Assembly: GCA_016779995.1 (NCBI GenBank)
Contig: JADHMO010000002.1
Coordinates: forward strand, 1-64,000
DNA from: Flavobacteriales bacterium
GTDB lineage: Bacteria; Bacteroidota; Bacteroidia; Flavobacteriales; UBA7312
Length of the DNA: 64,000 nucleotides
Direction of reading: 5' to 3'
Positions 13,189 to 58,953 of this stretch are shown one piece after another. Numbering within the stretch: the first letter of the stretch is position 1; each line of letters starts with the position of its first letter. Made by a program: the position numbers and the translations under genes. The notes beneath the pieces are model-generated. The model worked only from the letters and a program-made list of their open reading frames with translations. It was not told the origin of the DNA and did no database searches.

Positions 13189-16100
13189 ATGCGACTATTT
13201 TTTATAATTTTTATTTTTTTTAGCTTAAATTCATACAGTCAAATTGTTGTAAATGAATACTCAGCTGCAAATTTTGATGACTTCAATGATAATTATGGTC
13301 AAAATGAAGATTGGTTTGAACTGTACAATCCTTCTGGAACTGCAATAAACCTAAACGGCTACTATGTCAGCGACAAAGATGACAACCTCACAAAATGGCA
13401 ATTCACTTCAGATGTTAACATCAACCCCAATGAGCACTTAGTTGTTTTTTGTTCAGGTAGAGATGAGATAAACGGAGGTAATATTCACACCAGCTTCAAA
13501 CTTCATCAAACAAAAGGTAATGAATGGATTATTTTGACCGACCCAAATGGAATTACCGTTATTGACTCTGTCTTTATCAGACCTTGCTTAACTAATTCAT
13601 CAAGAGGAAGATTAAATTACTCAGACAACACTAAAGGAGTTTTTACTACGCCAACTCCTGGAGCTATTAATACTGGAGGATATATTGATTATTCATCAAC
13701 ACCATCATTTACGCCTGCTGCTGGTATTCATAACAATCCTATCAATGTGACTATTACAGCAGATTTAGGATCAACTATATACTTCACTACAGATGGAAGC
13801 TTACCAGATAATACAGATACACAATACAATGGACCGATTCCAATTAATAATACTACAGTTTTAAAAGCTGTTGCTTACAGTGATAATCCTGATATTTTGC
13901 CTAGTTTCATGGAATTTGGCACCTATTTCATCGGAGTTTCACATAGTATTAAAATTCTTTCTATATCTGGAAGAGAGTCCAATAATCCAGCCTTCCCTGA
14001 GCTTTATGAACTAATAGCTGGAGGAAATCAAGTGCAGCCTTTTGGAACTTTTGAAATATACAACCCTGACGGAAGCTTATTTGATAAAGCTAGAGGAGAG
14101 TTTAACGAACACGGAAACGATTCTTGGGCCTATCAACAAAGGGGATTTGACTACATAACTAGAGATCAATTTGGTTATAACTATGCAATTAAAGGTGAGG
14201 TTTTTAATGATAATGATAGAGATAGATTCCAAAGATTTATTGTAAAATGTGCTGCTAACGACAACTATCCTTTTTCTTACGGAAGCTCAGGAGCACATAT
14301 TAGAGATGCTTATGTTCAGTCTCTTTCACAGGTTGCCAAGTTGAGACTTGATGAACGTTCATACGAATCGTGCGTTATGTATCTTAATGGAGAATATTGG
14401 GGCGTTTACGAACTCCGAGAAAAAGTGGATGATTTAGACTACACCGAAATTCATTACGATCAAGACTCTGTTGCATTTTTGAAAACTTGGGGAGGCACAT
14501 GGGTAGATGTATTAACAGACGGGCAAAACCCTAATGATGTTGAGAATAGCTGGGATGATATAAGAAACTACATAACCGGCAACGACATGAGTATTCAAGC
14601 CAATTATGATTACGCTAAAGATCAATTTAATGTGGGAAGTTTAATTGATTACTTTATTCTTAATTCTTACACCGTAAACGCAGATTGGCTAAATTGGAAC
14701 ACGGCTTGGTGGAAAGGACTTAATGAAGATGGCGACAAAAAGAAATGGCGCTACGCTCTTTGGGATATGGATAATACTTTTGACCATGGTGCAAATTATA
14801 CAGGCATACCTAATGATGGTCCCGATGCAGACCCATGCGCCCCTGAATCATTAGGAAATATTGGTGGTCAAGGACACATTCCTATATGGAATGCATTGAT
14901 TGAAAATGAAGAATTTTTTGACGACTACATAAACAGATGGACAAATCTTTCAAATTCTTATTTGTCATGCGACTTTATGATTGCTCACCTAGATAGTTTG
15001 ATAGGTATTATAGAACCTGAAATGCAAGACCAAATTGACACTTGGGGAGGAAGCTACAACGAATGGATGGACAATGTCAATGATATGAAAGAATTCATGA
15101 ACGAACGTTGCACATTTTTGAACGCTGCAATTGTAGATTGTTATGATGTTGAAGGTCCATTTAATGTAAATGTGGTTATTAATGGTGTTGGCGAAGTGGA
15201 TTTTAACAATTTTTTCGATGTAAATGAATCAAACACTCCATTCAACGGAGAATTTTTTGGTGGAATTGATATTGATTTTAGTGTTACTAGTGGCAATTTC
15301 TCTTATTATGAAATTATTAGTAATGATAATTACAACTATAATGAAACAGATACGGATTTCTCATTAGAACTATTGGGTGATATAACTATCGTATTTTATT
15401 TTGATGCTAACGAAATAACTTTTTTAGTCGAACCTATTGGCTCAGGCAGTATGTCTATAAATGGAAATTCTATCACTGCATTTCCGCACTCACAAGCTTT
15501 TATTGACAATAGCAATATTGTGCTAAACGCACAGCCAAACCTAGGTTGGGAAATGGCATATTGGAGTAGCACAAATCATTCATTTTCGCCAACTACTACA
15601 GATGAAAATGTAAGTATAGTGGCTAACAGCTCTGATACTATTATCTTACATTTAAACCAACAACGTTTTGATTTAACTTACATATTAGAACCATCAAATG
15701 CTGAAGTAGATGTCGAGATTAATGGTAATATAATATCATCATTCCCCCATACTACTACAGAATTTTATGGTACCAACATTAGCCTAGATGCCAAGTCCAA
15801 TATCGCTTGGGACTTTTCGTATATGACCTCCAGCAATGGTTATTTTGCTGGACAATCTATTTCTCCTGTCTTTTCATTTGATGTAGATAAGTCTGACACC
15901 ATAACGATTTATTACGATGCGAACATCTTTTATGACGTTTCATATGAGGTCTCTCCAATAGGAAGTGGACAGATAAGAGCTAATAATGTTATGATTGGAG
16001 ATACCATTGTAACTATAACATATCCTTATACTGAATCAGTAAGCCTAGAAGCAATTGCATCTGATGGTTGGAGGTTTTCTCACTGGGACAAGCAAAATAA

Positions 16101-16473
16101 TATACTTAATCCTAGCGAAGATAATAGTAATGTGAATTTCACTGTCGAATCTTCTGATAATATTCGAGCGAACTTTAAAGAAATGTTCGAAGTATATGTG
16201 CCTAATTCATTCACTCCTGCCAATGACGATAACTTACACAACACATTTGATGTATCTATCTTCTCCATAGAAGGTGTAAAATTTGAATTTGAAGTGTTCA
16301 ATCGTTTTGGCGAATCTTTATTCTATAGCAATGATGAAAACATCTCTTGGGATGGTTCCTATAAAAATGGCTCTCAAGTACCATCTGGAGTTTACATCTA
16401 CATGCTTACTGTAGAATCAAATATGACAGGAAAAAAGATTCGGAAAAAGGGTTCAATTACTCTCTTAAGATAG
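13189..16473 (+). CDS. T9SS-secreted CotH-kinase protein with lamin-tail and bacterial-repeat domains
   Basis: The 1094-residue protein begins with a signal peptide (about 1-18). A lamin-tail domain spans roughly 19-155, and a chitobiase C-terminal-type beta domain roughly 165-235. A CotH-type protein kinase domain lies around 290-600, with GVYELREK at 405-412 and the metal-binding WDMDN at 525-529. Three InlB-like bacterial repeats follow at about 740-990, each with PIGSGSM- or PSNAEV-like cores. The C-terminal ~90 residues match a gliding-motility/T9SS type B sorting domain (FNRFGE, WDGSYKNG, VPSGVYIY). The predicted product is a surface-exposed kinase-fold protein. It has its own promoter and heads a four-gene run. 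The substrate is unknown. Confidence 0.88.
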   Translation: MRLFFIIFIFFSLNSYSQIVVNEYSAANFDDFNDNYGQNEDWFELYNPSGTAINLNGYYVSDKDDNLTKWQFTSDVNINPNEHLVVFCSGRDEINGGNIHTSFKLHQTKGNEWIILTDPNGITVIDSVFIRPCLTNSSRGRLNYSDNTKGVFTTPTPGAINTGGYIDYSSTPSFTPAAGIHNNPINVTITADLGSTIYFTTDGSLPDNTDTQYNGPIPINNTTVLKAVAYSDNPDILPSFMEFGTYFIGVSHSIKILSISGRESNNPAFPELYELIAGGNQVQPFGTFEIYNPDGSLFDKARGEFNEHGNDSWAYQQRGFDYITRDQFGYNYAIKGEVFNDNDRDRFQRFIVKCAANDNYPFSYGSSGAHIRDAYVQSLSQVAKLRLDERSYESCVMYLNGEYWGVYELREKVDDLDYTEIHYDQDSVAFLKTWGGTWVDVLTDGQNPNDVENSWDDIRNYITGNDMSIQANYDYAKDQFNVGSLIDYFILNSYTVNADWLNWNTAWWKGLNEDGDKKKWRYALWDMDNTFDHGANYTGIPNDGPDADPCAPESLGNIGGQGHIPIWNALIENEEFFDDYINRWTNLSNSYLSCDFMIAHLDSLIGIIEPEMQDQIDTWGGSYNEWMDNVNDMKEFMNERCTFLNAAIVDCYDVEGPFNVNVVINGVGEVDFNNFFDVNESNTPFNGEFFGGIDIDFSVTSGNFSYYEIISNDNYNYNETDTDFSLELLGDITIVFYFDANEITFLVEPIGSGSMSINGNSITAFPHSQAFIDNSNIVLNAQPNLGWEMAYWSSTNHSFSPTTTDENVSIVANSSDTIILHLNQQRFDLTYILEPSNAEVDVEINGNIISSFPHTTTEFYGTNISLDAKSNIAWDFSYMTSSNGYFAGQSISPVFSFDVDKSDTITIYYDANIFYDVSYEVSPIGSGQIRANNVMIGDTIVTITYPYTESVSLEAIASDGWRFSHWDKQNNILNPSEDNSNVNFTVESSDNIRANFKEMFEVYVPNSFTPANDDNLHNTFDVSIFSIEGVKFEFEVFNRFGESLFYSNDENISWDGSYKNGSQVPSGVYIYMLTVESNMTGKKIRKKGSITLLR

Positions 16474-46741: not shown

Positions 46742-46749
46742 TATTTTTG
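46742..46749 (+). promoter_or_regulatory. Likely -7 element of gcvP
   Basis: TATTTTTG at 46742-46749 matches TAnnTTTG and lies 21 bases before the ATG at 46771. It covers the in-frame TTG at 46747, so that codon is not the start. The -33 region is not clear. Confidence 0.5.
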
Positions 46750-46770
46750 TACTCTAAATATACTAACAAT

Positions 46771-49650
46771 ATGAATCAGTTCTCAGAACGCCATATCGGT
46801 CCACGACCAAGCGACCAAGAAAACATGCTTAACAAGATTGGAGTTTCTAATATGAGTGAGCTAATTGACCTTACTATTCCTCAGGCTATTCGTCTATCAA
46901 AGAAAATGGATTTACCCAAAGCTCTCAATGAATCCGAGTTACTTGACCATATGAAAATGTTAGGTCAAAAAAATAAAAATTATAGATCTTATATTGGCTT
47001 AGGCTACTACAACACTATTCTACCTGGCGTTATTCAAAGAAATATATTAGAAAATCCGGGTTGGTATACGGCTTACACGCCATATCAAGCTGAAATTGCA
47101 CAAGGCAGACTCGAGGCTTTATTAAATTACCAAACAATGGTAACTGACTTGACAGCTATGGAAATTGCTAATGCCTCATTGCTAGACGAAGGAACTGCAG
47201 CGGCTGAAGCAATGATAATGCTATTCAATGCCATGCACAAAGACAAGAAAAAAGCTAAAGCTTGTACATTTTTAGTTTCTAAAGATTGCTTTCCCCAAAC
47301 TATAGATGTCCTTAAAACAAGAGCTACTCCAATTGGCATAAAACTTCAAATTGTTGAACATTCTGATTTCATTTTTTCAGATGATGTTTTCGGTATGTTA
47401 GTTCAGTATCCTTGCAAATATGGTAACATTGAAAACTATAAAGTTTTGGCTCAAGATGCTAAAAACAATAACGTTGGTATTGCTGTAACAGCCGATTTAT
47501 TAAGTCTTACTCTTTTAACACCTCCTGGTGAATGGGGAGCAGATGTCGTAGTTGGAACAACCCAACGCTTTGGAATCCCTATGGGTTATGGCGGTCCTCA
47601 CGCGGCCTATTTCGCTACAAAAGAAAGCTATAAAAGAAATATACCTGGCAGAATTATCGGTGTTACAATTGATGCTGAAGGCAATAGAGCATTGAGAATG
47701 GCACTTCAAACCAGAGAACAACACATCAAGCGAGAAAGAGCAACATCTAATATCTGTACTGCTCAAGTGCTACTATCTGTTATGGCGGGAATGTATGGTG
47801 TATATCACGGTCCAAAACGACTTAAAAATATTGCTAGAAAAATACACGGCTTAGCATGTGTCTTAACTGAGGGACTAGAGCAATTGGGCTACAAACAACT
47901 CAATAAAAATTACTTTGACACTATTTTGGTCAATATAAATGACGTGTCTATTGATACACTCAAGGTATTTGCTGAAGATGCTAAGATGAATTTTAATTAT
48001 ATCGATGATAAACATCTTTCCATTTCCATTGACGAAAAAGATGGCCTTCAAAACATCAATGATATTCTAAGCGTATTTGCAAAAAGCTGTAATCACTCTG
48101 ACCCGACCGAATTAATAAAAAATGTACTGAGCGGAAATTATACAGATGCCAATTCGTTTATCCCAAAAGAATTATATAGAGAAAGTCCATATATGCAACA
48201 CGAGGTATTCAATACCTATCACAGTGAGACCGAAATGATGCGCTACATTAAGCGATTAGAGAATAAAGATTTAGCATTGAATCATTCCATGATACCTCTA
48301 GGCTCTTGTACCATGAAACTAAATGCTGCTGCTGAGCTTTTTCCTCTAAGTTGGAGTGAATTTAGCAACATACACCCATTCGCGCCAATCAATCAAGCTC
48401 GAGGCTATCAAATTATGTTTCACGAACTAGAAGAATCCCTGTGTGAAATTACTGGCTTTGACGGTATGTCTTTACAACCCAATTCTGGTGCTCAAGGTGA
48501 ATATGCCGGCTTAATGGTAATAAGAGCATATCATCAAAGTAGAAACGAAAGTAATAGAGACATTTGTCTTATTCCTTCATCAGCACACGGTACAAATCCC
48601 GCTTCTGCCACTATGGCTGGCATGAAAGTCGTTGTTACAAAATGCGATGAAATGGGTAACATTGATGTTGATGATCTAAAAGCAAAAGCAGAAGAACACA
48701 GTGAAAATTTAGCTGCCTTGATGATTACCTACCCCTCTACTCATGGTGTATTTGAAGAATCAGTAATTGAAGTGACAAATATCATTCATCAACATGGCGG
48801 ACAAATATATATGGACGGTGCTAATATGAATGCTCAAGTTGGATTAACAAATCCAGCTATTATTGGAGCTGATGTATGTCACCTCAATCTTCATAAAACA
48901 TTTGCCATTCCTCATGGAGGAGGAGGGCCAGGAATGGGTCCTATAGGAGTGGTTGAACATCTCAAGCCATTTTTACCCTCTAACCCTATTATCCCAACAG
49001 GAGGTGAACAAGCCATTTCTGCCATTTCTGCAGCACCTTGGGGTTCATCATTAGTATTGTGCATTTCATATGCCTACATCAAAATGTTGGGTGAAGAAGG
49101 ATTAACAAAATCTACTGAAGTGGCTATTCTTAACGCTAACTATATTAAAGAAGAATTGAAAGACGACTATACCATTCTTTATACCAACCCTAATAATATG
49201 GTGGCTCATGAAATGATACTAGAATGTCGCCCATTTAAAGATGTTGGAATAGAAGTTACGGATATAGCTAAACGACTTATGGACTATGGATTCCATGCAC
49301 CAACAGTCTCTTTTCCTGTTGTTGGAACACTTATGGTTGAACCTACAGAAAGTGAAAGTAAACAAGAATTGGACAAATTCATTGCAGCTATGAAATCTAT
49401 TAGAAAAGAGATTAACGCTATAGCAAGTGGACAGTCTGACGAAAAAGATAATGTTTTAAAAAATGCTCCTCATACTATTAATTTAATAGCCAATGATAAA
49501 TGGGAAAAACCATACAGCAGACAAGAAGCGGCATTTCCACTTGAATATATCAATGACAATAAATTTTGGCCAAGTGTAAGTCGTGTTGACGATGCCTTTG
49601 GAGATAGAAATTTAGTATGCTCGTGCGAGAGTATTGAGAGTTACATTTAA
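46771..49650 (+). CDS. gcvP: Glycine dehydrogenase (decarboxylating), P-protein
   Basis: This 959-residue homodimeric P-protein decarboxylates glycine on PLP and passes the aminomethyl group to lipoyl-GcvH. It is the fused type with both P1 and P2 halves. The N-terminal FSERHIGP segment is at 4-11. The catalytic lysine motif HLNLHKTFAIPHGGGGPG is near 700-720, and SVMAGMYGVYHGP lies in the first half. The ATG at 46771 fits the conserved N-terminus. No glycine riboswitch is present in the short leader, and gcvT/gcvH are not adjacent. Confidence 0.97.
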   Translation: MNQFSERHIGPRPSDQENMLNKIGVSNMSELIDLTIPQAIRLSKKMDLPKALNESELLDHMKMLGQKNKNYRSYIGLGYYNTILPGVIQRNILENPGWYTAYTPYQAEIAQGRLEALLNYQTMVTDLTAMEIANASLLDEGTAAAEAMIMLFNAMHKDKKKAKACTFLVSKDCFPQTIDVLKTRATPIGIKLQIVEHSDFIFSDDVFGMLVQYPCKYGNIENYKVLAQDAKNNNVGIAVTADLLSLTLLTPPGEWGADVVVGTTQRFGIPMGYGGPHAAYFATKESYKRNIPGRIIGVTIDAEGNRALRMALQTREQHIKRERATSNICTAQVLLSVMAGMYGVYHGPKRLKNIARKIHGLACVLTEGLEQLGYKQLNKNYFDTILVNINDVSIDTLKVFAEDAKMNFNYIDDKHLSISIDEKDGLQNINDILSVFAKSCNHSDPTELIKNVLSGNYTDANSFIPKELYRESPYMQHEVFNTYHSETEMMRYIKRLENKDLALNHSMIPLGSCTMKLNAAAELFPLSWSEFSNIHPFAPINQARGYQIMFHELEESLCEITGFDGMSLQPNSGAQGEYAGLMVIRAYHQSRNESNRDICLIPSSAHGTNPASATMAGMKVVVTKCDEMGNIDVDDLKAKAEEHSENLAALMITYPSTHGVFEESVIEVTNIIHQHGGQIYMDGANMNAQVGLTNPAIIGADVCHLNLHKTFAIPHGGGGPGMGPIGVVEHLKPFLPSNPIIPTGGEQAISAISAAPWGSSLVLCISYAYIKMLGEEGLTKSTEVAILNANYIKEELKDDYTILYTNPNNMVAHEMILECRPFKDVGIEVTDIAKRLMDYGFHAPTVSFPVVGTLMVEPTESESKQELDKFIAAMKSIRKEINAIASGQSDEKDNVLKNAPHTINLIANDKWEKPYSRQEAAFPLEYINDNKFWPSVSRVDDAFGDRNLVCSCESIESYI

Positions 49651-49740
49651 GATTACATAAAATACTTGTTAGTTGGTCTAGGTTTTTATGAAAAAAGACC
49701 GTAAATTCGTACACACTTAACTGATAATTTAACAAGTAAT

Positions 49741-51603
49741 ATGAAAAATTTTTATTCTATCATCTGTTTATTAATCCTTGCAAACACTTCTTTTGCTCAG
49801 ATAATGAACAATCAAAATTTTATTGATGCGTCAAGATATGACCAGCACACAAAGTACCTAAACAAATACGAAATTACTCTAAGATCTTCTGTTGATTGTT
49901 CAACTTCAGACGCTTTATATTGTGAAGATTTTGAAACCGTTTCAATTCCAGATTTACCATCTGATGTATCAACAAACACTTTAGAGCAAAATTATTACAC
50001 AATTTCAAATTCAGATCAAATTCAAGTATCAGGTTTTTATACTGGAACTTCAGTTGATGCAAACGCAGGAGGTTATTGGCCAGTAGGAGAGCATGGCCAA
50101 TTTGCTATGACAAATGATGATGCCTGTAGACCCGGTGGAGTAACACCTGGAAACAATAACAACTGTGATTTAGCTTTTGAATCTCTTACTTTACCAATGC
50201 TAGATTTTACTGGTCAATCTGATGTGTTTTTAATATTTGACTACTACCACGATAAAAACTACGGTGGTGGAGATGCTTATGTTGAAGTAAGTAATGACGG
50301 AGGTGTCAATTATACTGATATTTCTGGCCCTCTAAGCAATCTAGAAGCGTGGCAACAAGGAATCATTAGCCTATCTGATTACAATGACCAAGATTCGATT
50401 GTTATTCGTTTCGTATGGAGTGACAACGGAAGTTGGGCAACAGGATTTGCTGTTGATGATATTGAAATTAACGAATTACAAGATAATTCTTTATCAATGC
50501 CACTATTCAACCAATGGTTAGCAGGTTATGATGGGTTTGCATCATCCTATTCTCAAATTCCATTAAGTATGATTCCAAACTCTACAGGAATAATATTCCA
50601 ATCTTATGTATTTAATAACGGAAATCTTGCACAAGATTCTATTCGTTTACATGCATCAGCTACTGGTTTCACTTCACAAAGTACTGCTGTTAACTTAGAA
50701 TCTCTAGAGCAAGATACATTACAATGTACTGAAAGATTCCAGCCAACATCTACTGGTGTTTATCAATTAGATTTTTATCTTATGTCTGATAGTGTAACGA
50801 CTGTTACAAAATCTAAATCTATTGAAATTACAGACTTCATTTATGCTAGAGATGATAACGAAATTGACGCTGTAAATTCACTTCTTCCTTCTGGCGATGG
50901 CATAAGCACATGGGAAAGAGGAGCTATCTACGATATATACGAGAGCAATACACTTTATGCAATCGATGCATATATTCATAACGCTACTACAGCAAATGCT
51001 AAAATTCAAGGTAAAATTTATCTTTATCAAGACAACCAAACTTTCTTTTTAGAAGAAACTAACTTATTATCAGTATCGGCTAGTGACGGATGGCAAAGCG
51101 TAAAGTTTGCTAATCCTGTAGCTTTAGATGCTGAAAGCCAGTATTTAATTACTGTTGCTGGAGATGGTTCTGCTTTAAATGACACCCTTAGAATTGGTTC
51201 AAGTGGTAGTGTACAAAGTAGTTATGGTTATATTGTTTACAACGGTTGGGTTGATAGTAATGGAACAACTGCTACAGATGGAACAACAGGCTCTACTCCT
51301 ATGGTAAGAATGAATATGAATCCAGATGTTGCTGGACCAACTAGTATTGAAGATAATTCATACTCTGCTTTTAACGTTTATCCAAATCCAAACAACGGAA
51401 TATTTAATATTTCATTGACTAATTCAACAGACAAGCAGACAATAGAAATTAAAAATATTATTGGGCAAACTATTTATTCGCAAATCGTTGGTAATTCATT
51501 AAATACTACTATCAACTTGTCTGATATTAACAAAGGAATTTATACTGTTTCTCTAATTAACGAAAACGGAACAAGTTCTACTAAAAAGATAATTATTCAA
51601 TAA
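49741..51603 (+). CDS. T9SS-secreted protein, paralog A1
   Basis: This 620-residue protein has a signal peptide (1-20, ending FAQ) and an N-terminal beta module at about 55-250 of the adhesin/MAM-like type, with CEDFETV at 61-67, FDYYHDKNYGGGDA at 166-179 and a closing AVDDIEI. A middle region of Ig-like character (about 255-375) and a second beta module (about 380-535, ending MVRMNMNPDV) follow. A type A sorting tail starts at YPNPNNG (547) and ends GIYTVSLINENG...KKIIIQ. It is probably surface-attached or secreted. Ligand or function is unknown. Cysteines in the first module could pair. Confidence 0.83.
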   Translation: MKNFYSIICLLILANTSFAQIMNNQNFIDASRYDQHTKYLNKYEITLRSSVDCSTSDALYCEDFETVSIPDLPSDVSTNTLEQNYYTISNSDQIQVSGFYTGTSVDANAGGYWPVGEHGQFAMTNDDACRPGGVTPGNNNNCDLAFESLTLPMLDFTGQSDVFLIFDYYHDKNYGGGDAYVEVSNDGGVNYTDISGPLSNLEAWQQGIISLSDYNDQDSIVIRFVWSDNGSWATGFAVDDIEINELQDNSLSMPLFNQWLAGYDGFASSYSQIPLSMIPNSTGIIFQSYVFNNGNLAQDSIRLHASATGFTSQSTAVNLESLEQDTLQCTERFQPTSTGVYQLDFYLMSDSVTTVTKSKSIEITDFIYARDDNEIDAVNSLLPSGDGISTWERGAIYDIYESNTLYAIDAYIHNATTANAKIQGKIYLYQDNQTFFLEETNLLSVSASDGWQSVKFANPVALDAESQYLITVAGDGSALNDTLRIGSSGSVQSSYGYIVYNGWVDSNGTTATDGTTGSTPMVRMNMNPDVAGPTSIEDNSYSAFNVYPNPNNGIFNISLTNSTDKQTIEIKNIIGQTIYSQIVGNSLNTTINLSDINKGIYTVSLINENGTSSTKKIIIQ

Positions 51604-51626
51604 TTATATACTTAATCTTAACAAGA

Positions 51627-51657
51627 AAAAAAGCAGGCTAGCGTCTGCTTTTTTTAT
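51627..51657 (+). terminator. Hairpin terminator after paralog A1
   Basis: The A-run plus GCAGGC...GTCTGC hairpin (one mismatch) at about 51633-51648 ends in a T-run. It lies between A1 and B1, yet no clear promoter lies between it and B1, so read-through is likely to feed B1. Confidence 0.7.
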
Positions 51658-51671
51658 TAAAACTCAATATT

Positions 51672-53549
51672 ATGAAACACGCTTTATTAATTTTTGGAAT
51701 GGCTTTTAGCTTATGTTCTTATGCACAAGAAAGTATTAAGTCATTAATGAGCTTTACTGAAAAAGCCCCAACTATATATCAGTTACGTTCGTTACAAGCT
51801 GTTGCTGAAGAAGACAGTGCTGATGTCATTTGGTACGAAGATTTTAGAGAAGGTCTAGATGGAAACAATTCTTCTATAGATCCAGCATGGACAGTAAGTG
51901 GCGATGACGGTGATGTCTGGGAACTTGATTTTGATGGTTCTAATGGGGACTATGCAGGAAATACACCTTATTTATTGGAGTCAGAATCTGCAGCTAACGG
52001 TTGGATGATTTTTGATGCTGATGGATCAAATGCAGGATTGCCTACCTCGGCTTACTCTGAAAGACAAGGCCAACTAACCTCTCCTTATATTGATTTATCA
52101 AACGATTCAAATGTGACTCTAAGTTTTGAACATGCTTACAGATGGTGTTGTTTTAGTTCACACGAATTAGTGGTATCCATCAATGATGGTTCTGGATGGG
52201 AATCAGCAGCTAGTTATCAAGTCAATGACCTAGGTACTGTTAACGTCCTATCAGGAACCATAACTTATGAAGTTATTATCACAGAAATAGCAGCATTAAA
52301 GGATAGTGTTCAAATACGTTTTGACTGGGCTGTTGGTGAAAATACAGCTTCTCACTATTTTTGGATGGTTGATGATGTGAAAATTATCAAAACTCAACCT
52401 TATTCTTCAAATCTTTTAAATAGTTTTAATAATGTACCTAGCGCTTATTTTGGAGGCACATCTTATCGTGTAATGCCATTGGAACAAATTTCAGAAACAG
52501 AATACTTTTATGGTGGTTATATTGAAAATGTAGGATATAACACGCTTGACAGTTTGAGAATACATGCCGAAGTGACTTCTGCTGGATTTATGTCACAAAG
52601 TGATGGTTTATCTCTAGTTTCTAGTGATAGGGATAGTATTTACGTCAATGATGGTTTCACGCCAACAGAAATAGGAACATATGATGCTGACATTGTTGGT
52701 AAAGATGATGATGGTTATGTTTTAACTGATACGCTTAGACGCACATTTGTTGTATCTGATTATATTTATGCTCGAGACAATGGAGATAACGCTACCAATT
52801 TTGGACGATATGGCATCAACGCTGACGGCTCAAGACAATATGGAAATGTTTTTGATATATATGCAACAAGTACCTTGTATAGCGTTAAGTTTCGTTTGGA
52901 TGAAAGAACCTCTGCAAATGCTCAAGGTACAATAAGATTAAATACTGTCGATACTCAATCTGGAGAAATTAGCTTTTTAGTAGAAACAGAAACCCTAAAT
53001 TTAGGTCAATATACTGGAGATTGGTTCGATGTATCATTTGACCCTCCAATTATACTAGATGCTGGACAAGTGGTTTTACCTGCTATTTATGCTACATATA
53101 ATGGTATAGACACAGTATTTGTTAATACATCTGGATCCAATCCTAACAACAGTGAAAGTTTAGTGCAAGATATTGATGGCACACAAGAGGGAGTAAACCC
53201 TGGGACTTGGCTATATACAACATCAGCTCCATGTGTAAGATTAAATTTTGATCCTACTGTTGTTGGAGTAAATGTAGGTATTGAAGAAAATAACTCTTTA
53301 TCTAAATTTAATGTTTTCCCTAATCCAAACAACGGGCACTTCAACATACAAATTCAAACTTCGCAATCGGAAGATATAAGTATTAATATTTCAAATTTAG
53401 TAGGTCAAGTTGTGTATTCAGAAAAAGTATCGATAACCAATTCACTGAACAAATGGCTAGACCTTAGCCATTTAGAAAAAGGTGTTTATACCGTTACATT
53501 AGAGAATAACAACAAAAACTTTATGGTAAAGAAAGTGACTATTCAATAA
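51672..53549 (+). CDS. T9SS-secreted protein, paralog B1
   Basis: This 625-residue protein begins with a signal peptide (1-19, ending SYAQ). Its N-terminal module (about 55-240) has GLDGNNSS, NGWMIFDADG, the double cysteine in YRWCCFSSH, and closes with WMVDDVKI. The middle region and second beta module (closing APCVRLNFDP) parallel those of B2. The type A sorting tail begins at FPNPNNG (about 550) and ends KKVTIQ. Adjacent cysteines in a secreted protein are unusual and shared with B2. Function unknown. Confidence 0.83.
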   Translation: MKHALLIFGMAFSLCSYAQESIKSLMSFTEKAPTIYQLRSLQAVAEEDSADVIWYEDFREGLDGNNSSIDPAWTVSGDDGDVWELDFDGSNGDYAGNTPYLLESESAANGWMIFDADGSNAGLPTSAYSERQGQLTSPYIDLSNDSNVTLSFEHAYRWCCFSSHELVVSINDGSGWESAASYQVNDLGTVNVLSGTITYEVIITEIAALKDSVQIRFDWAVGENTASHYFWMVDDVKIIKTQPYSSNLLNSFNNVPSAYFGGTSYRVMPLEQISETEYFYGGYIENVGYNTLDSLRIHAEVTSAGFMSQSDGLSLVSSDRDSIYVNDGFTPTEIGTYDADIVGKDDDGYVLTDTLRRTFVVSDYIYARDNGDNATNFGRYGINADGSRQYGNVFDIYATSTLYSVKFRLDERTSANAQGTIRLNTVDTQSGEISFLVETETLNLGQYTGDWFDVSFDPPIILDAGQVVLPAIYATYNGIDTVFVNTSGSNPNNSESLVQDIDGTQEGVNPGTWLYTTSAPCVRLNFDPTVVGVNVGIEENNSLSKFNVFPNPNNGHFNIQIQTSQSEDISINISNLVGQVVYSEKVSITNSLNKWLDLSHLEKGVYTVTLENNNKNFMVKKVTIQ

Positions 53550-53568
53550 ATACGTTCACTATTCGTTT

Positions 53569-53602
53569 AAAAAAAAGCAGGCTACAAACCTGCTTTTTTT
53601 TT
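53569..53602 (+). terminator. Strong hairpin terminator after paralog B1
   Basis: An A-rich stem with AAGCAGG/CCTGCTT around a CTACAAA loop is followed by ten T. It is a strong intrinsic terminator, and together with the promoter-like elements just downstream it makes B2 a new transcription unit. Confidence 0.88.
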
Positions 53603-53626
53603 TGCTCAGAATTTTATGTAACTTTG
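53601..53626 (+). promoter_or_regulatory. Likely promoter of paralogs B2-A2
   Basis: TTTG at 53601-53604 (in the terminator T-run) and TAACTTTG at 53619-53626 match the consensus boxes with 14 bases between, shorter than usual. The B2 ATG is 25 bases downstream. Confidence 0.52.
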
Positions 53627-53650
53627 TGACAACTTTTTAAACTTAAAACT

Positions 53651-55543
53651 ATGAAACCTGTACTTACTTTTATGGGCATATTATTAACTCTTAATATTTT
53701 TGCTCAGCAACTAACTTCTCAACTTTTACAATCAAACTCATTTCTTAGTCATTCCTCCAACACCCCTACGGAATACCAAGGATGGATTGATGACGACAAT
53801 ACTTATTCCTCGAGTGCTGCCTCTTCAGCTACAGATGTAATATTGTGGTCAGATGACTTTGCCAATGGCTTAGATGGCAATAACACATCTACTGTGCAAA
53901 CTTGGACAGTATCTGGCACACACAGCACCTTATGGGAGTATGATACGGATGGTTCTGAAGGTCCATTTGCTGGTAATCCACCATTAACTCTAGAATCTGA
54001 AACCAAAGATAATGGCTGGATGATTTTTGACGCTGATAAAGCGAATACAAACCTTCCTCAATCTGCATTTGTGAAAAAGCATGGTGAACTTATTTCTCCT
54101 AGTATAGACTTATCCAACGACACTAATGTAACCCTAAAATTTACACACATGTATAGATATTGTTGTAGCCCCGATCATACACTAAAGGTTTACATATATG
54201 ACGGGACTAATTGGAGTAATGGTATAGATGTAAGTATAGGCAGTACTGTAAATTCTGTAAAAGAAACTAATGAAATTGAATTGAATATAACGCAATACGC
54301 CGGTCAAAAATCGGATGTAAAAATTAAATTTTCATGGGAAGCAGACGAAGCCGAAGCTTACTATTGGATGATTGATGATGTCAAAATTGTAAAAACCAAT
54401 CCTTATGATGCTAATCTGCTTAATGCTTTTTATGTAACTCCAACCTCTGTATACGGAGGAACAAGCTATCGAATAATGAATTTAGAACAAGCTGAACAAA
54501 CAACGTATTATTTTGTTGGCTCTTTACAAAACTCTGGATACAACAACATAGATAGCTCAAGAATTTATGCTAGTGTTGTTGGCGAAAACCAATCTTTTCA
54601 AAGTCATGGTCTAGTGAGTACCCCTACATCTATTGATACACTTTACACTAATCAAGGTTTTACTCCATCAGCTACAGGGGTTTATAATGCAGATATATGG
54701 GGAAGCGACAATGATAACCAATTCAATACAGATACCATAAGAGTAGGTTTTGAAATTCACCAATATGAATATGGCAAGGATAATGGTAATTACAACCAAG
54801 GTAATTTTCAACGACGAGTGATGAATGATGATGGTGCTTATGAAATAGGAAATCGTTTTATGATTTATAAAAGCAAAGAGCTAGAAACTGTAAAAATCAG
54901 AATGGATGCTAGAACTGGTCCGGATGCTAAGGGTAGAATTAAACTATACGAAATACAATCGGATGGCTCGAGAGTATTTATTATTGAATCGCAAGAGAAA
55001 AATATAGGTCAAAGTGCTGGGAATTGGTATAATTTTAAGTTTGATAACCCATGGGATTTAAGTGCAAACACGGAATATATGGTTATGTTATACACAGCTG
55101 CAGCAACTTCAACAACTGATACTGCTTTTATCAGCACAGGTGGAATTGTTGATCCACAAGAAAGTTTCTTAGTTGATGTAGATGGAGCAGGAACAAATGT
55201 TGAACCAAATACTTGGTTTTATACTATATCAGCTCCTTGTGTACGATTAAATTTTGACCCTAATGTAATTGGTATAAAAGAGCAATTGGGTTTAGCTGAC
55301 TTAAGTCTATATCCTAATCCAAATAGTGGAATTTTCAAGATAAAAATAAAGTCTGAAAAACAAGAAGATCTTCATCTAAATGTAAGAAATGTATTAGGTC
55401 AGATTGTGTACTCAGAAGATTTTATTAAGGTCAATCAACTGACTAAACAAATGAATCTTACTCATTTGAATAGTGGACTTTACACCATTAGCTTGGAATC
55501 TGAAAGAGGACAGCTTAGTACTCAAAAAGTAATTATTAAGTAA
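53651..55543 (+). CDS. T9SS-secreted protein, paralog B2
   Basis: This 630-residue paralog of B1 has a signal peptide (1-19). Its N-terminal module has GLDGNNTS, NGWMIFDADK and the double cysteine in YRYCCSPDH, closing with WMIDDVKI. The second beta module ends APCVRLNFDP. The type A tail begins YPNPNSG (about 554) and ends QKVIIK. B1 and B2 are clearly homologous along their whole length but diverged. It lies after a terminator with its own promoter-like boxes and is 10 bases before A2, so the two are co-transcribed. Confidence 0.83.
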   Translation: MKPVLTFMGILLTLNIFAQQLTSQLLQSNSFLSHSSNTPTEYQGWIDDDNTYSSSAASSATDVILWSDDFANGLDGNNTSTVQTWTVSGTHSTLWEYDTDGSEGPFAGNPPLTLESETKDNGWMIFDADKANTNLPQSAFVKKHGELISPSIDLSNDTNVTLKFTHMYRYCCSPDHTLKVYIYDGTNWSNGIDVSIGSTVNSVKETNEIELNITQYAGQKSDVKIKFSWEADEAEAYYWMIDDVKIVKTNPYDANLLNAFYVTPTSVYGGTSYRIMNLEQAEQTTYYFVGSLQNSGYNNIDSSRIYASVVGENQSFQSHGLVSTPTSIDTLYTNQGFTPSATGVYNADIWGSDNDNQFNTDTIRVGFEIHQYEYGKDNGNYNQGNFQRRVMNDDGAYEIGNRFMIYKSKELETVKIRMDARTGPDAKGRIKLYEIQSDGSRVFIIESQEKNIGQSAGNWYNFKFDNPWDLSANTEYMVMLYTAAATSTTDTAFISTGGIVDPQESFLVDVDGAGTNVEPNTWFYTISAPCVRLNFDPNVIGIKEQLGLADLSLYPNPNSGIFKIKIKSEKQEDLHLNVRNVLGQIVYSEDFIKVNQLTKQMNLTHLNSGLYTISLESERGQLSTQKVIIK

Positions 55544-55553
55544 ATTTTTAGCT

Positions 55554-57413
55554 ATGAAAAAATTACATCTCATTTTATTGTGCATTTCGTATATCTCCTT
55601 TGCTCAAAATCCGTATCCCGTAAATTTTGAAGCATTCAGAGATAACACCACAAAAAAACTTATCAAAACTACGCCAAGAAGTAGTAATCAACAATTAGAT
55701 TGTTCAGACACATCCTACATCTATTGTGAAAACTTTGAGTCCGTTTCATCTCCTGAATTACCAAGTGATATAACTACATCATCTTTAGAAGATGGATATA
55801 ATGTCACAGTGAATTCTACAGCTCAAAACGTTAGTGGGTTCTACACAGGAAACTTTGAGGATGCCAATGTTGGAGGGTATTGGCCTGTTTCTGAGCATAC
55901 TCAATTTGCTATGACTAATGATGATGCTTGTAAACCCAATGGAATTACTCCTAATACAAATAATAACTGTGATCTTAGCTTTGAAGTCATAGAGTTACCT
56001 AGATTAGACTTTACAGGTCTTGAAGATGTGTTTTTGATATTTGATTATTACCATGACAAAAATTATGGTGGTGGCGATGCTGTTGTAGAAGTTAAAACAG
56101 CTAATCAATCGACTTGGACAGATATATCAGGAAATTTAACGAGTTTAGATGACTGGCAGGAAGGCATTTTTTCACTTTCGGATTATAATAATACAGATTC
56201 TGTGAATATTAGAATTAGATGGTCTGATGGGAATAGTTGGGCAAGTGGGTTTGCTATTGATAACATTGTGGTTAAAAAATTAAAAAATTATGATTTATCG
56301 TTAATTGCTTATGACCATTATATGAGTGGTAATTCGTATATAAACAACTACTCCATAATTCCACTTGAACAACAAAATGTAGAGGGGGTTATTGCTAGAG
56401 CTGTCATAAGAAATACAGGAAACAATGCTCAAGATTCTGTACGCTTAAAAATAGAAGTCAGTTCAGAAAGCTACACGGATCAAAGTTGGGGTAAGAATTT
56501 GGTTTCACTAGCTAGAGATACATTTTTTGCTAATCAATTTTTTAACGTAAGTTCAACTGGCAACTACGATTTGGACTTCATAGCAGAATCAGATAGTACA
56601 TCTACCCAAGCTTTAAGTAGAAGCCTAAATATTAGTGAATATACTTTTGCAAGGGATGATAACACTCCAGCGTTGAGTTTTAGTTTATTTTCCGCAATTG
56701 GAACAGCATCGACTGTTGAGCATGGCAATTCATTTGATATAGCCGCTGATGATGATTTATACGCCGTAGATGTATTCATCGCTGATAACAGTTACCCTAA
56801 TGGTAAAATCCAAGCCAAAGTTTATGAAATCATATCAGGAACGGCTGCATTTCTAACAGAATCTAACCCACTTAGTATAGTCAGTACAGGTGCATGGCAA
56901 AGTGTAAAATTTCCAACTCCTGTTCCATTAGTTGCAGATAAAGAATATTTAATTACTGTTGGAGGTGATGGAACTACAACTGATACAACAAGAATAGGCG
57001 TTAGTAGCTCTAAAATTAGTAGTTATGGTTGGAGAATATATAATGGATTCTCTGGAACTAGTGGAACAGCACCTCAGGACGGTATATACCTATCTATTCC
57101 TATGGTTAGGATGAATTTTGACCCTGATGTTCCTGGACCAACAAGTATTGAAGAAGAAGAGGAGTTATCATTTTTTACCATATATCCCAACCCTAATAAT
57201 GGGGTGTTTAGCCTAAGTTTTGACGATTTATCTGAAAGCTCATCTATAGAAATTCATAATATTCTTGGTCAACTAGTACATAAAGAATTTTTGAATCAAC
57301 ATACTCTAACGAAAGAATTCAACTTGAGTCACTTCGAAAAAGGTATTTATACAGTAAGTTTGATTAATCTTGAAGGAAAAACTGCACAAACGCAAAAGAT
57401 TATAATTAAGTAA
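55554..57413 (+). CDS. T9SS-secreted protein, paralog A2
   Basis: This 619-residue paralog of A1 has a signal peptide (1-17, ending SFAQ) and an N-terminal module with YCENFESV, FDYYHDKNYGGGDA and AIDNIVV. It keeps A1's arrangement throughout, including MVRMNFDPDVPGPTSIE. The type A sorting tail begins at YPNPNNG (about 544) and ends QKIIIK. It follows B2 by 10 bases, so it is in that transcription unit. A1 and A2 share long identical stretches around the first module, which implies either strong constraint or gene conversion. Confidence 0.83.
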   Translation: MKKLHLILLCISYISFAQNPYPVNFEAFRDNTTKKLIKTTPRSSNQQLDCSDTSYIYCENFESVSSPELPSDITTSSLEDGYNVTVNSTAQNVSGFYTGNFEDANVGGYWPVSEHTQFAMTNDDACKPNGITPNTNNNCDLSFEVIELPRLDFTGLEDVFLIFDYYHDKNYGGGDAVVEVKTANQSTWTDISGNLTSLDDWQEGIFSLSDYNNTDSVNIRIRWSDGNSWASGFAIDNIVVKKLKNYDLSLIAYDHYMSGNSYINNYSIIPLEQQNVEGVIARAVIRNTGNNAQDSVRLKIEVSSESYTDQSWGKNLVSLARDTFFANQFFNVSSTGNYDLDFIAESDSTSTQALSRSLNISEYTFARDDNTPALSFSLFSAIGTASTVEHGNSFDIAADDDLYAVDVFIADNSYPNGKIQAKVYEIISGTAAFLTESNPLSIVSTGAWQSVKFPTPVPLVADKEYLITVGGDGTTTDTTRIGVSSSKISSYGWRIYNGFSGTSGTAPQDGIYLSIPMVRMNFDPDVPGPTSIEEEEELSFFTIYPNPNNGVFSLSFDDLSESSSIEIHNILGQLVHKEFLNQHTLTKEFNLSHFEKGIYTVSLINLEGKTAQTQKIIIK

Positions 57414-57435
57414 TAGTTAATATTTGACAATAAAG

Positions 57436-57463
57436 AAGGCTAGTTTTGACTAGCCTTTTTTTG
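57436..57463. terminator. Bidirectional terminator between A2 and mlaF
   Basis: A perfect 9-bp stem AAGGCTAGT/ACTAGCCTT with loop TTTG (57436-57457) precedes a T-run on the plus strand and follows an A-rich stretch. It lies between convergent A2 and mlaF. Confidence 0.88.
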
Positions 57464-57466
57464 TGT

Positions 57467-58213
57467 CTATTTTCTTAACTTTTTGAATAGTTTAGAAGCA
57501 AAAACAAAATCATTTAACTCCTTAGTTGTGGAGTTGATTATGGAGTCTTTATCGCCTTGCCACGCCAATTGACCTTGGTGTATAAATGCAATGTTATCTC
57601 CTATCTCCATAACTGAATTCATATCATGAGTGTTAACTACAGTTGTTATGTTATACTCTTGAGTAATTTCTTGAATAAGGTTATCAATAATAATGGCTGT
57701 TTGTGGGTCTAAACCTGAGTTTGGCTCATCACAAAATAGATATTTAGGCTTCATAGAAATGGCTCTTGCAATAGCTACTCGTTTCATCATACCACCGCTT
57801 AATTCGGCAGGAAATAAGGCATTAGCATTATTTAAATTGACTCTTTTCAAACAAAAATTTACTCTATCTTTTTTTTCCTCATTACTCATATCAGTAAACA
57901 TATTGAGAGGAAAAGCAATATTTTCTTCGACTGTTAGGTAATCAAATAATGCTCCACCTTGAAAAAGCATTCCAATTTCTTTTCTAAGGTTTCGTTTTTC
58001 TTTTTTATCCAAATCATCAAATGAGGATTCATTAAATAAAATACTTCCAGAATCAGCTCTATGCAAACCTACCATGCATTTTATGAGGGTTGTTTTACCT
58101 GAGCCACTAGCTCCTATAACAAGATTGGTTTTACCAGACTGAAAGGTAAAAGATACGTCTTTTAAAACGTGATTATCTCCAAAGGTTTTATGTATATTTT
58201 TAACTTCTATCAT
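57467..58213 (-). CDS. Phospholipid ABC transporter ATP-binding protein MlaF-like
   Basis: This 248-residue ATPase belongs to the Mla group, which moves phospholipids between the membranes. Walker A is GASGSGKTT near 34-42, the signature LSGGMMKRVAIAR, Walker B YLFCDEPNSGLDP, and the H-loop VVNTHDM. The GMMKRV wording is typical of MlaF. It overlaps mlaE by 4 bases and is the last gene of the unit. No MlaD (MCE) gene follows it here; the next gene is a convergent T9SS protein gene. Confidence 0.92.
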   Translation of the reverse strand: MIEVKNIHKTFGDNHVLKDVSFTFQSGKTNLVIGASGSGKTTLIKCMVGLHRADSGSILFNESSFDDLDKKEKRNLRKEIGMLFQGGALFDYLTVEENIAFPLNMFTDMSNEEKKDRVNFCLKRVNLNNANALFPAELSGGMMKRVAIARAISMKPKYLFCDEPNSGLDPQTAIIIDNLIQEITQEYNITTVVNTHDMNSVMEIGDNIAFIHQGQLAWQGDKDSIINSTTKELNDFVFASKLFKKLRK

Positions 58214-58953
58214 GCCAACATTAATTGCGTAAGAATGAAGTTCATAATAAGAATAACTATACAGCTATAAACCACTGATTTAGTACTAGACTTTCCAACG
58301 GCTAAGGCTCCGCCCCTAGTAAAGTATCCAAAAAAAGAAGAAATAGAGGAAATAGCAAAAGCGAAAAATACCGTTTTTACCAGAGCATAAAAAATATAAA
58401 AAGGTTCAAACCAATATATAAGCCCTTGCAAAAATTCTGGCTTACTAATAATTCCACCTAGGGTAGCTGCTAAAAACCCACCGAACATACCAATACCCAT
58501 ACTAATAATAACAAGAAAAGGGAAAAATAATACTGATGCTATTATTTTAGGTTGGATAATAAAGGCAGCAGAATTGATGCCCATAATTTCTAAAGCATCT
58601 ATTTGTTCAGAAACTCTCATTGTTCCAATTTCAGAGGCAATACTAGAGCCTACTTTACCTGCAAGAATTAGGGCAATCATGGTCGGTGAAAACTCTAATA
58701 TGAGTGACTCACGTGTAGCATATCCAATCAAGTATTTAGGAATAAAAGGATTATTTAATTGCAAACCCGTTTGTATAGTCACAACGGCACCCATAAATAA
58801 AGATATGATAGAAACAATTGTCAAAGAGTTTACACCAAGCTTAATCATTTCATCGACAATGCGTTTGATATAAACCTTCTTATTCTCTGGGCGACTAAAC
58901 ACATTCCCCAACATACTGAGGTACAAGCCAAAAAGTTTTAAGCCATTAATCAT
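58210..58953 (-). CDS. MlaE-family phospholipid ABC permease
   Basis: This 247-residue protein has about five hydrophobic helices with the family residues VGSSIASEIGTMRVSEQIDALEIMGI. It pairs with MlaF in the inner membrane. The 4-base overlap with mlaF indicates translational coupling. A -7-like element lies upstream at 58968-58961 on the minus strand, very close to the start, so the leader is very short. Confidence 0.93.
   Translation of the reverse strand: MINGLKLFGLYLSMLGNVFSRPENKKVYIKRIVDEMIKLGVNSLTIVSIISLFMGAVVTIQTGLQLNNPFIPKYLIGYATRESLILEFSPTMIALILAGKVGSSIASEIGTMRVSEQIDALEIMGINSAAFIIQPKIIASVLFFPFLVIISMGIGMFGGFLAATLGGIISKPEFLQGLIYWFEPFYIFYALVKTVFFAFAISSISSFFGYFTRGGALAVGKSSTKSVVYSCIVILIMNFILTQLMLA

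Follow-up and report, generated by a model that had tools for sequence, protein, structure and literature searches.

What do four related genes lying in tandem in a Flavobacteriales genome encode, and what might their products do for the cell? This question is raised by the 64,000-nucleotide stretch of DNA analysed here (the window). The original prediction described four tandem proteins of 619-630 residues in the order A-B-B-A at 49741-57413, and the coordinates confirm it, there being four intact plus-strand open reading frames in that order with ATG starts and without internal stops:

49741..51603, plus strand: A1, 620 aa, with a head of type A (class H4), an Ig-like module, a second beta module (D3) and a T9SS type A tail
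51672..53549, plus strand: B1, 625 aa, with a head of type B (class H5), GLDGNN and a CC pair
53651..55543, plus strand: B2, 630 aa, with a head of type B (H5)
55554..57413, plus strand: A2, 619 aa, with a head of type A (H4), starting 10 nt past B2

All four proteins have a common layout of a signal-peptide-like start, a jelly-roll head, an Ig-like module, D3 and a type A T9SS tail. The prediction of a single architecture with two N-terminal types also stands: FDYYHDKNYGGGDA is found in A1 and A2, GLDGNN with an adjacent cysteine pair is found in B1 (C159-C160) and B2 (C171-C172), and in this comparison the heads are 22-24% identical between types. When the proteins were aligned module by module, A1 and A2 were 61% identical in the head, 39% in Ig, 48% in D3 and 47% in the tail, and B1 and B2 were 49%, 45%, 42% and 39% identical in the same modules; between types, the Ig, D3 and tail modules are 27-51% identical. 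The four genes are the sole matches in their own genome to a profile built without the tail. No tandem DNA repeats were found, and there are no structured RNA families in the window.

The claim that these proteins are secreted by the T9SS through a type A tail is well supported, since all four match PF18962 (Por_Secre_tail) at 51-56 bits (curated cut-off 27) and TIGR04183 at 41-48 bits (curated cut-off 23). Each N-terminus has an MK start, a hydrophobic stretch and an A-Q junction, read here as a probable signal peptide. The two T9SS parts searched for in the genome, SprA (2605 bits) and a PorU-type sortase (1355 bits), are both present above cut-off. Like other type A cargo (PF18962 / TIGR04183), the proteins combine a signal-peptide-like start, a beta-rich passenger and a C-terminal type A sorting domain over curated cut-offs, but their passenger modules belong to no curated family and they are encoded in a tandem array that frequently has a fixed place next to gcvP. 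Matches among viral relatives were confined to the tail. Elsewhere in the window, a CotH-kinase protein encoded at 13189-16473 has a type B T9SS tail in addition to lamin-tail and chitobiase-C-like domains.

In Pfam and NCBIfam, the only match to the four proteins above cut-off beyond the tail was a marginal one to DUF3244 in A1, which overlaps the tail, and no curated family in either collection covers the head, the Ig module or D3. The cleaved adhesin / choice-of-anchor J sequence model did not match the four window proteins. Among 31 relatives scanned, four matched choice-of-anchor J NF038128 weakly (best E 0.0023), 11 gave a weak match to Reelin_subrepeat-B, and one matched InhA-like_MAM at E 0.0042, short of the curated MAM model; the heads and D3 match weakly in some members and reach a curated domain threshold in none of the 31. 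Neither a ligand-binding site nor an enzyme signature was identified in the array proteins, and literature searches found no paper on the family. The original prediction would have fallen if these modules belonged to a family of known function, and no characterised family covers heads, Ig or D3.

Structure prediction, which had been proposed as a check, was run on A1 and B1. The AlphaFold models are essentially all-beta (mean pLDDT 77.5 and 77.8), with a low-confidence linker directly before the tail (residues 534-542 in A1 and 535-543 in B1). In a Foldseek search of the PDB both models matched the K1 cleaved adhesin domain of Kgp (4itc) with probability 1.00 and target TM 0.64 and 0.63, that is, the same solved domain despite a head identity of about 20%; whole-chain TM-scores are low, and the likeness is supported at the level of the domain fold. 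Other matches were to Reelin repeats and to MAM-Ig receptor fragments or meprin chains, and the jelly-roll modules also matched accessory regions of GH85/GH2 enzymes and tandem CBM22. The head, as modelled, resembles a cleaved-adhesin/MAM-type jelly-roll domain of about 200 residues, and the adhesin/MAM-like beta modules recognised in the original prediction are borne out both by these folds and by the weak Reelin, MAM and anchor-J matches. The cleaved adhesin domains of gingipains and HagA of Porphyromonas gingivalis share the head fold and the T9SS route with the array proteins; however, identity is 14-16%, and the array heads lie on separate proteins rather than in polyprotein repeats and are not accompanied by a protease domain. 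Reelin repeats and the MAM-Ig modules of receptor phosphatases likewise have a jelly-roll followed by an Ig-like domain, though at about 10% identity the likeness is one of fold only.

The reading that we favour, with reasonable though not strong confidence, is that the array encodes abundant T9SS-exported surface adhesins, probably anchored by PorU, with at least two binding heads. A Sec signal peptide would bring each protein to the periplasm, where the type A tail would be recognised and the protein passed across the outer membrane, SprA being present. The tail would then be removed and the protein probably attached to a surface glycolipid by the PorU sortase that the genome encodes, with cleavage in the low-confidence linker just before the tail. 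The mature protein would consist of a 200-residue cleaved-adhesin/MAM-type head on the Ig-like and second beta modules, and the two head types may confer at least two binding specificities on related bodies.

The division into two types is real but is part of a larger variety, as there are at least eleven head classes, A and B among them, when heads are clustered at 45% identity. Nor are the members unmixed A or B proteins; they are mosaics in which modules have been exchanged between paralogs. In the f11 arrays the heads H1, H2 and H3 (and H6) always occur in that order, with subsets. In five of these arrays the H2 and H3 heads form clades (100/100 and 99/97) and an H1 clade is not rejected, whereas for Ig and D3 of the same arrays a clade is rejected for each of the three head classes (AU p 3.6e-3 to 1.4e-13); the alignment that supplied these other modules also served to define the head classes. 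For most sister genomes, orthology between window A1 and the first A gene does not extend over the whole length. A1 and its L171 ortholog have an Ig-D3 of the A2 type, which groups with A2 at 100/100, and a simple orthology of this body to the sister first genes is rejected (AU p 4.8e-5). With first-gene tails the A1 tail groups only weakly (90/85), so that chimerism in A1 is well established for the body but no more than suggested for the tail. Synonymous divergence between window B1 and L171 B1 is 0.14-0.23 in head, Ig and D3 and 0.70 in the tail, which points to replacement of the tail; a search of five genomes for the donor found nothing near-identical.

Within arrays, synonymous divergence is low in some segments only, for example 0.31 in the tails of L181 against 0.95-2.1 elsewhere, and 0.30 in the tails of both L164 and L156; identity profiles along the paralogs agree with these segment-limited drops. 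Neighbouring paralogs at L026 (5760-9392), L164 (5836-14497) and L181 (8876-12786) have 85-91% identical tails on divergent ectodomains. T9SS tails appear to have been converted between neighbouring paralogs, given such near-identical sorting tails on divergent ectodomains, and recombination or gene conversion among paralogs best accounts for the module patterns as a whole. For the surface proteins of P. gingivalis, domain rearrangement and allelic exchange have been reported (PMC5266723). A variable head on a constant stalk was considered as a general rule and rejected: it holds in f11 and partly in f1, and f48 shows the opposite, with heads 52-68% identical and bodies often 20-40% in L210 and L212. 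Faster evolution of the heads was likewise rejected as the cause of the overall pattern, because the heads show the lower similarity only within arrays (0.36, against 0.50 for D3); compared across genomes, their mean best value of 0.60 exceeds the 0.54 of D3.

Whether A and B types co-occur elsewhere was a further check on the original prediction, and both types are found in every genome of the host's family with an intact array. All seven arrays of this family begin A-B and keep the two head types together. The full A-B-B-A order is present in three of the seven (the window, L173 and L174/L021), L168, L170 and L171 have two genes, and L172 has two genes followed by a 182-aa A2 remnant with a B2-like promoter box and start before it. 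Since all seven begin A-B, three are full and L172 retains the remnant of a lost B-A pair, the family's ancestral array was probably A-B-B-A, some genes having been lost afterwards. In G001, the product of L169 4488-9190 has 1567 aa or more and combines azurin-like and fasciclin domains, a B-type head-Ig-D3 block, TIG and an SprB repeat.

Several candidate transcription signals lie around the genes:

49702..49709, plus strand: putative promoter-like box TAAATTCG, upstream of A1
51626..51655, plus strand: hairpin and T run, about AAAAAAAGCAGGCTAGCGTCTGCTTTTTTT, in the A1-B1 spacer, conserved in 7/7 arrays of the host's family
53569..53601, plus strand: hairpin and T run downstream of B1, between B1 and B2
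53619..53626, plus strand: promoter-like box TAACTTTG, before B2
57432..57461, plus strand: intrinsic-terminator-like hairpin at the array end

In every array of the genus, and also in L173, a TAAATTCG box lies ahead of the first gene (spacers of the window, L168, L170, L171, L172 and L173), and the remnant in G004 retains TAATTTTG in the spacer that matches the box before B2. Inspection of the spacers revealed no evident promoter for B1 itself. The four genes are probably not one transcription unit, because terminator-like hairpins part A1 from B1 and B1 from B2 and only B2 and A2 are tightly coupled; the 10-nt gap between the latter suggests that they are probably cotranscribed. Termination at the A1/B1 hairpin may be partial, and read-through there, together with a second promoter before B2, would give a stoichiometry of A1 > B1 > B2-A2.

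Codon usage is consistent with such a graded output led by A1. With the codon adaptation index referenced to the genome's own ribosomal-protein cluster, A1 (0.727) is the highest of the 48 window genes, above the ribosomal mean of 0.702, and B1, B2 and A2 rank 3, 13 and 23. In 17 further genomes most array genes lie near the ribosomal mean, and the best one ranks first to third in its locus. As a proxy, codon usage near the ribosomal-protein level in most of the 18 genomes suggests that the array proteins are probably abundant. It would also suit the main rival to the adhesin reading, an S-layer-like coat of two or more T9SS-exported subunits whose heads make lateral contacts instead of binding an external ligand, as would the encoding of several related subunits together with a fixed order of heads. 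A known S-layer exported by the T9SS consists of two proteins, the abundant TfsA and TfsB of Tannerella forsythia (PMC4175972, PMC10202324), and the logic of more than one T9SS-exported surface protein is alike, abundance here being deduced from codon usage. However, TfsA and TfsB are lattice-forming proteins of 133 and 151 kDa, whereas the array proteins have 619-630 aa; the array heads resemble binding or adhesin folds, some relatives have just two copies or one, and the O-glycosylation motif shows only slight enrichment (481 occurrences against 348 expected in 115 family members). We regard such a coat as rather unlikely.

Two landmarks flank the array in the window:

46747..49650, plus strand: gcvP (glycine dehydrogenase), next to the array on its upstream side in many Bacteroidia
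57467..58953, minus strand: an ABC ATPase and MlaE permease pair, a frequent downstream neighbour

Both serve as landmarks, and gcvP is not proposed as a functional partner. Rather than being peculiar to this genome, the array belongs to a class-wide locus often fixed beside gcvP, as the tail-less profile finds full-length relatives in many Flavobacteriales and across the class Bacteroidia. In 32 loci examined gcvP lies directly upstream, the array starting 17-101 nt after it in 31 and 225 nt after it in the other. These gcvP-linked arrays span several Bacteroidia families, often with mlaFE at the array end. In a class-wide sample of 18 loci picked by strength of match, gcvP adjoins the family in eight, and L210, L212, L222 and L224 have gcvP and an MlaE-type transporter on the two sides of the array. 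Arrays contain one to five copies, several comparison genomes being incomplete MAGs, and relatives away from gcvP occur as single genes or short arrays.

Some loci differ in detail. Beside the MlaE transporter at L152 7663-8745 (G009), the array consists of short fragments at a contig end, reflecting decay or assembly error. An ArsP-type heavy-metal exporter gene occupies the place of the window's feoB at L168 4464-5570, and a gene of the same size lies in the same place at L170 14131-15240, the identification having been made in L168 only. Five f11 arrays (L175, L176, L184, L185 and L186) include a gene for 512-563 aa; the four scanned are arylsulfotransferase-like (PF05935) and lie between members (L175 11699-13240, L184 9352-10890, L185 10977-12515, L186 8375-10066), and that of L176 is of the same size in the same place.

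The window neighbours are gcvP, kynureninase, an MlaE-type ABC transporter and feoB, and those of the f11 arrays are pantothenate kinase and LptC. Because these are housekeeping genes, the position beside gcvP looks like inherited synteny and not a functional pathway. The scanned neighbours, in the window and in f11 alike, include no SusC/SusD, glycoside hydrolase or other CAZyme genes, which makes it less likely that the proteins capture algal polysaccharide at the cell surface for degradation as part of nutrient uptake. The matches of the jelly-roll modules to GH85/GH2 accessory regions and tandem CBM22 would fit such a role, but beta-sandwich fold matches are unspecific, and we consider it more doubtful still than a coat. 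A gliding-motility adhesin set is most improbable, for although SprA is present and the minor gliding adhesin RemA also has a type A tail (PMC10202324), a scan of the four proteins with domain models detected neither SprB repeats nor a type B tail that passed the cut-off.

Our preferred reading remains that of surface adhesins bearing two or more kinds of head. We also put forward, as a speculative extension to which we give little weight, a class-wide Bacteroidia surface-coat locus, often between gcvP and mlaFE, encoding one to five abundant T9SS subunits of a mixed layer, with heads, bodies and tails traded separately among paralogs by recombination. The array ectodomains are covered by no curated family or paper that we found, and the genes are good candidates for a dominant component of the outer surface of Flavobacteriales and other Bacteroidia. 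Because its place in the chromosome is conserved, the locus can readily be located, counted and deleted, and the head and body combinations that module exchange has produced in nature could be used to test the role of each part. If they are abundant and surface-bound, the array proteins would shape attachment, phage adsorption and contact with glycans.
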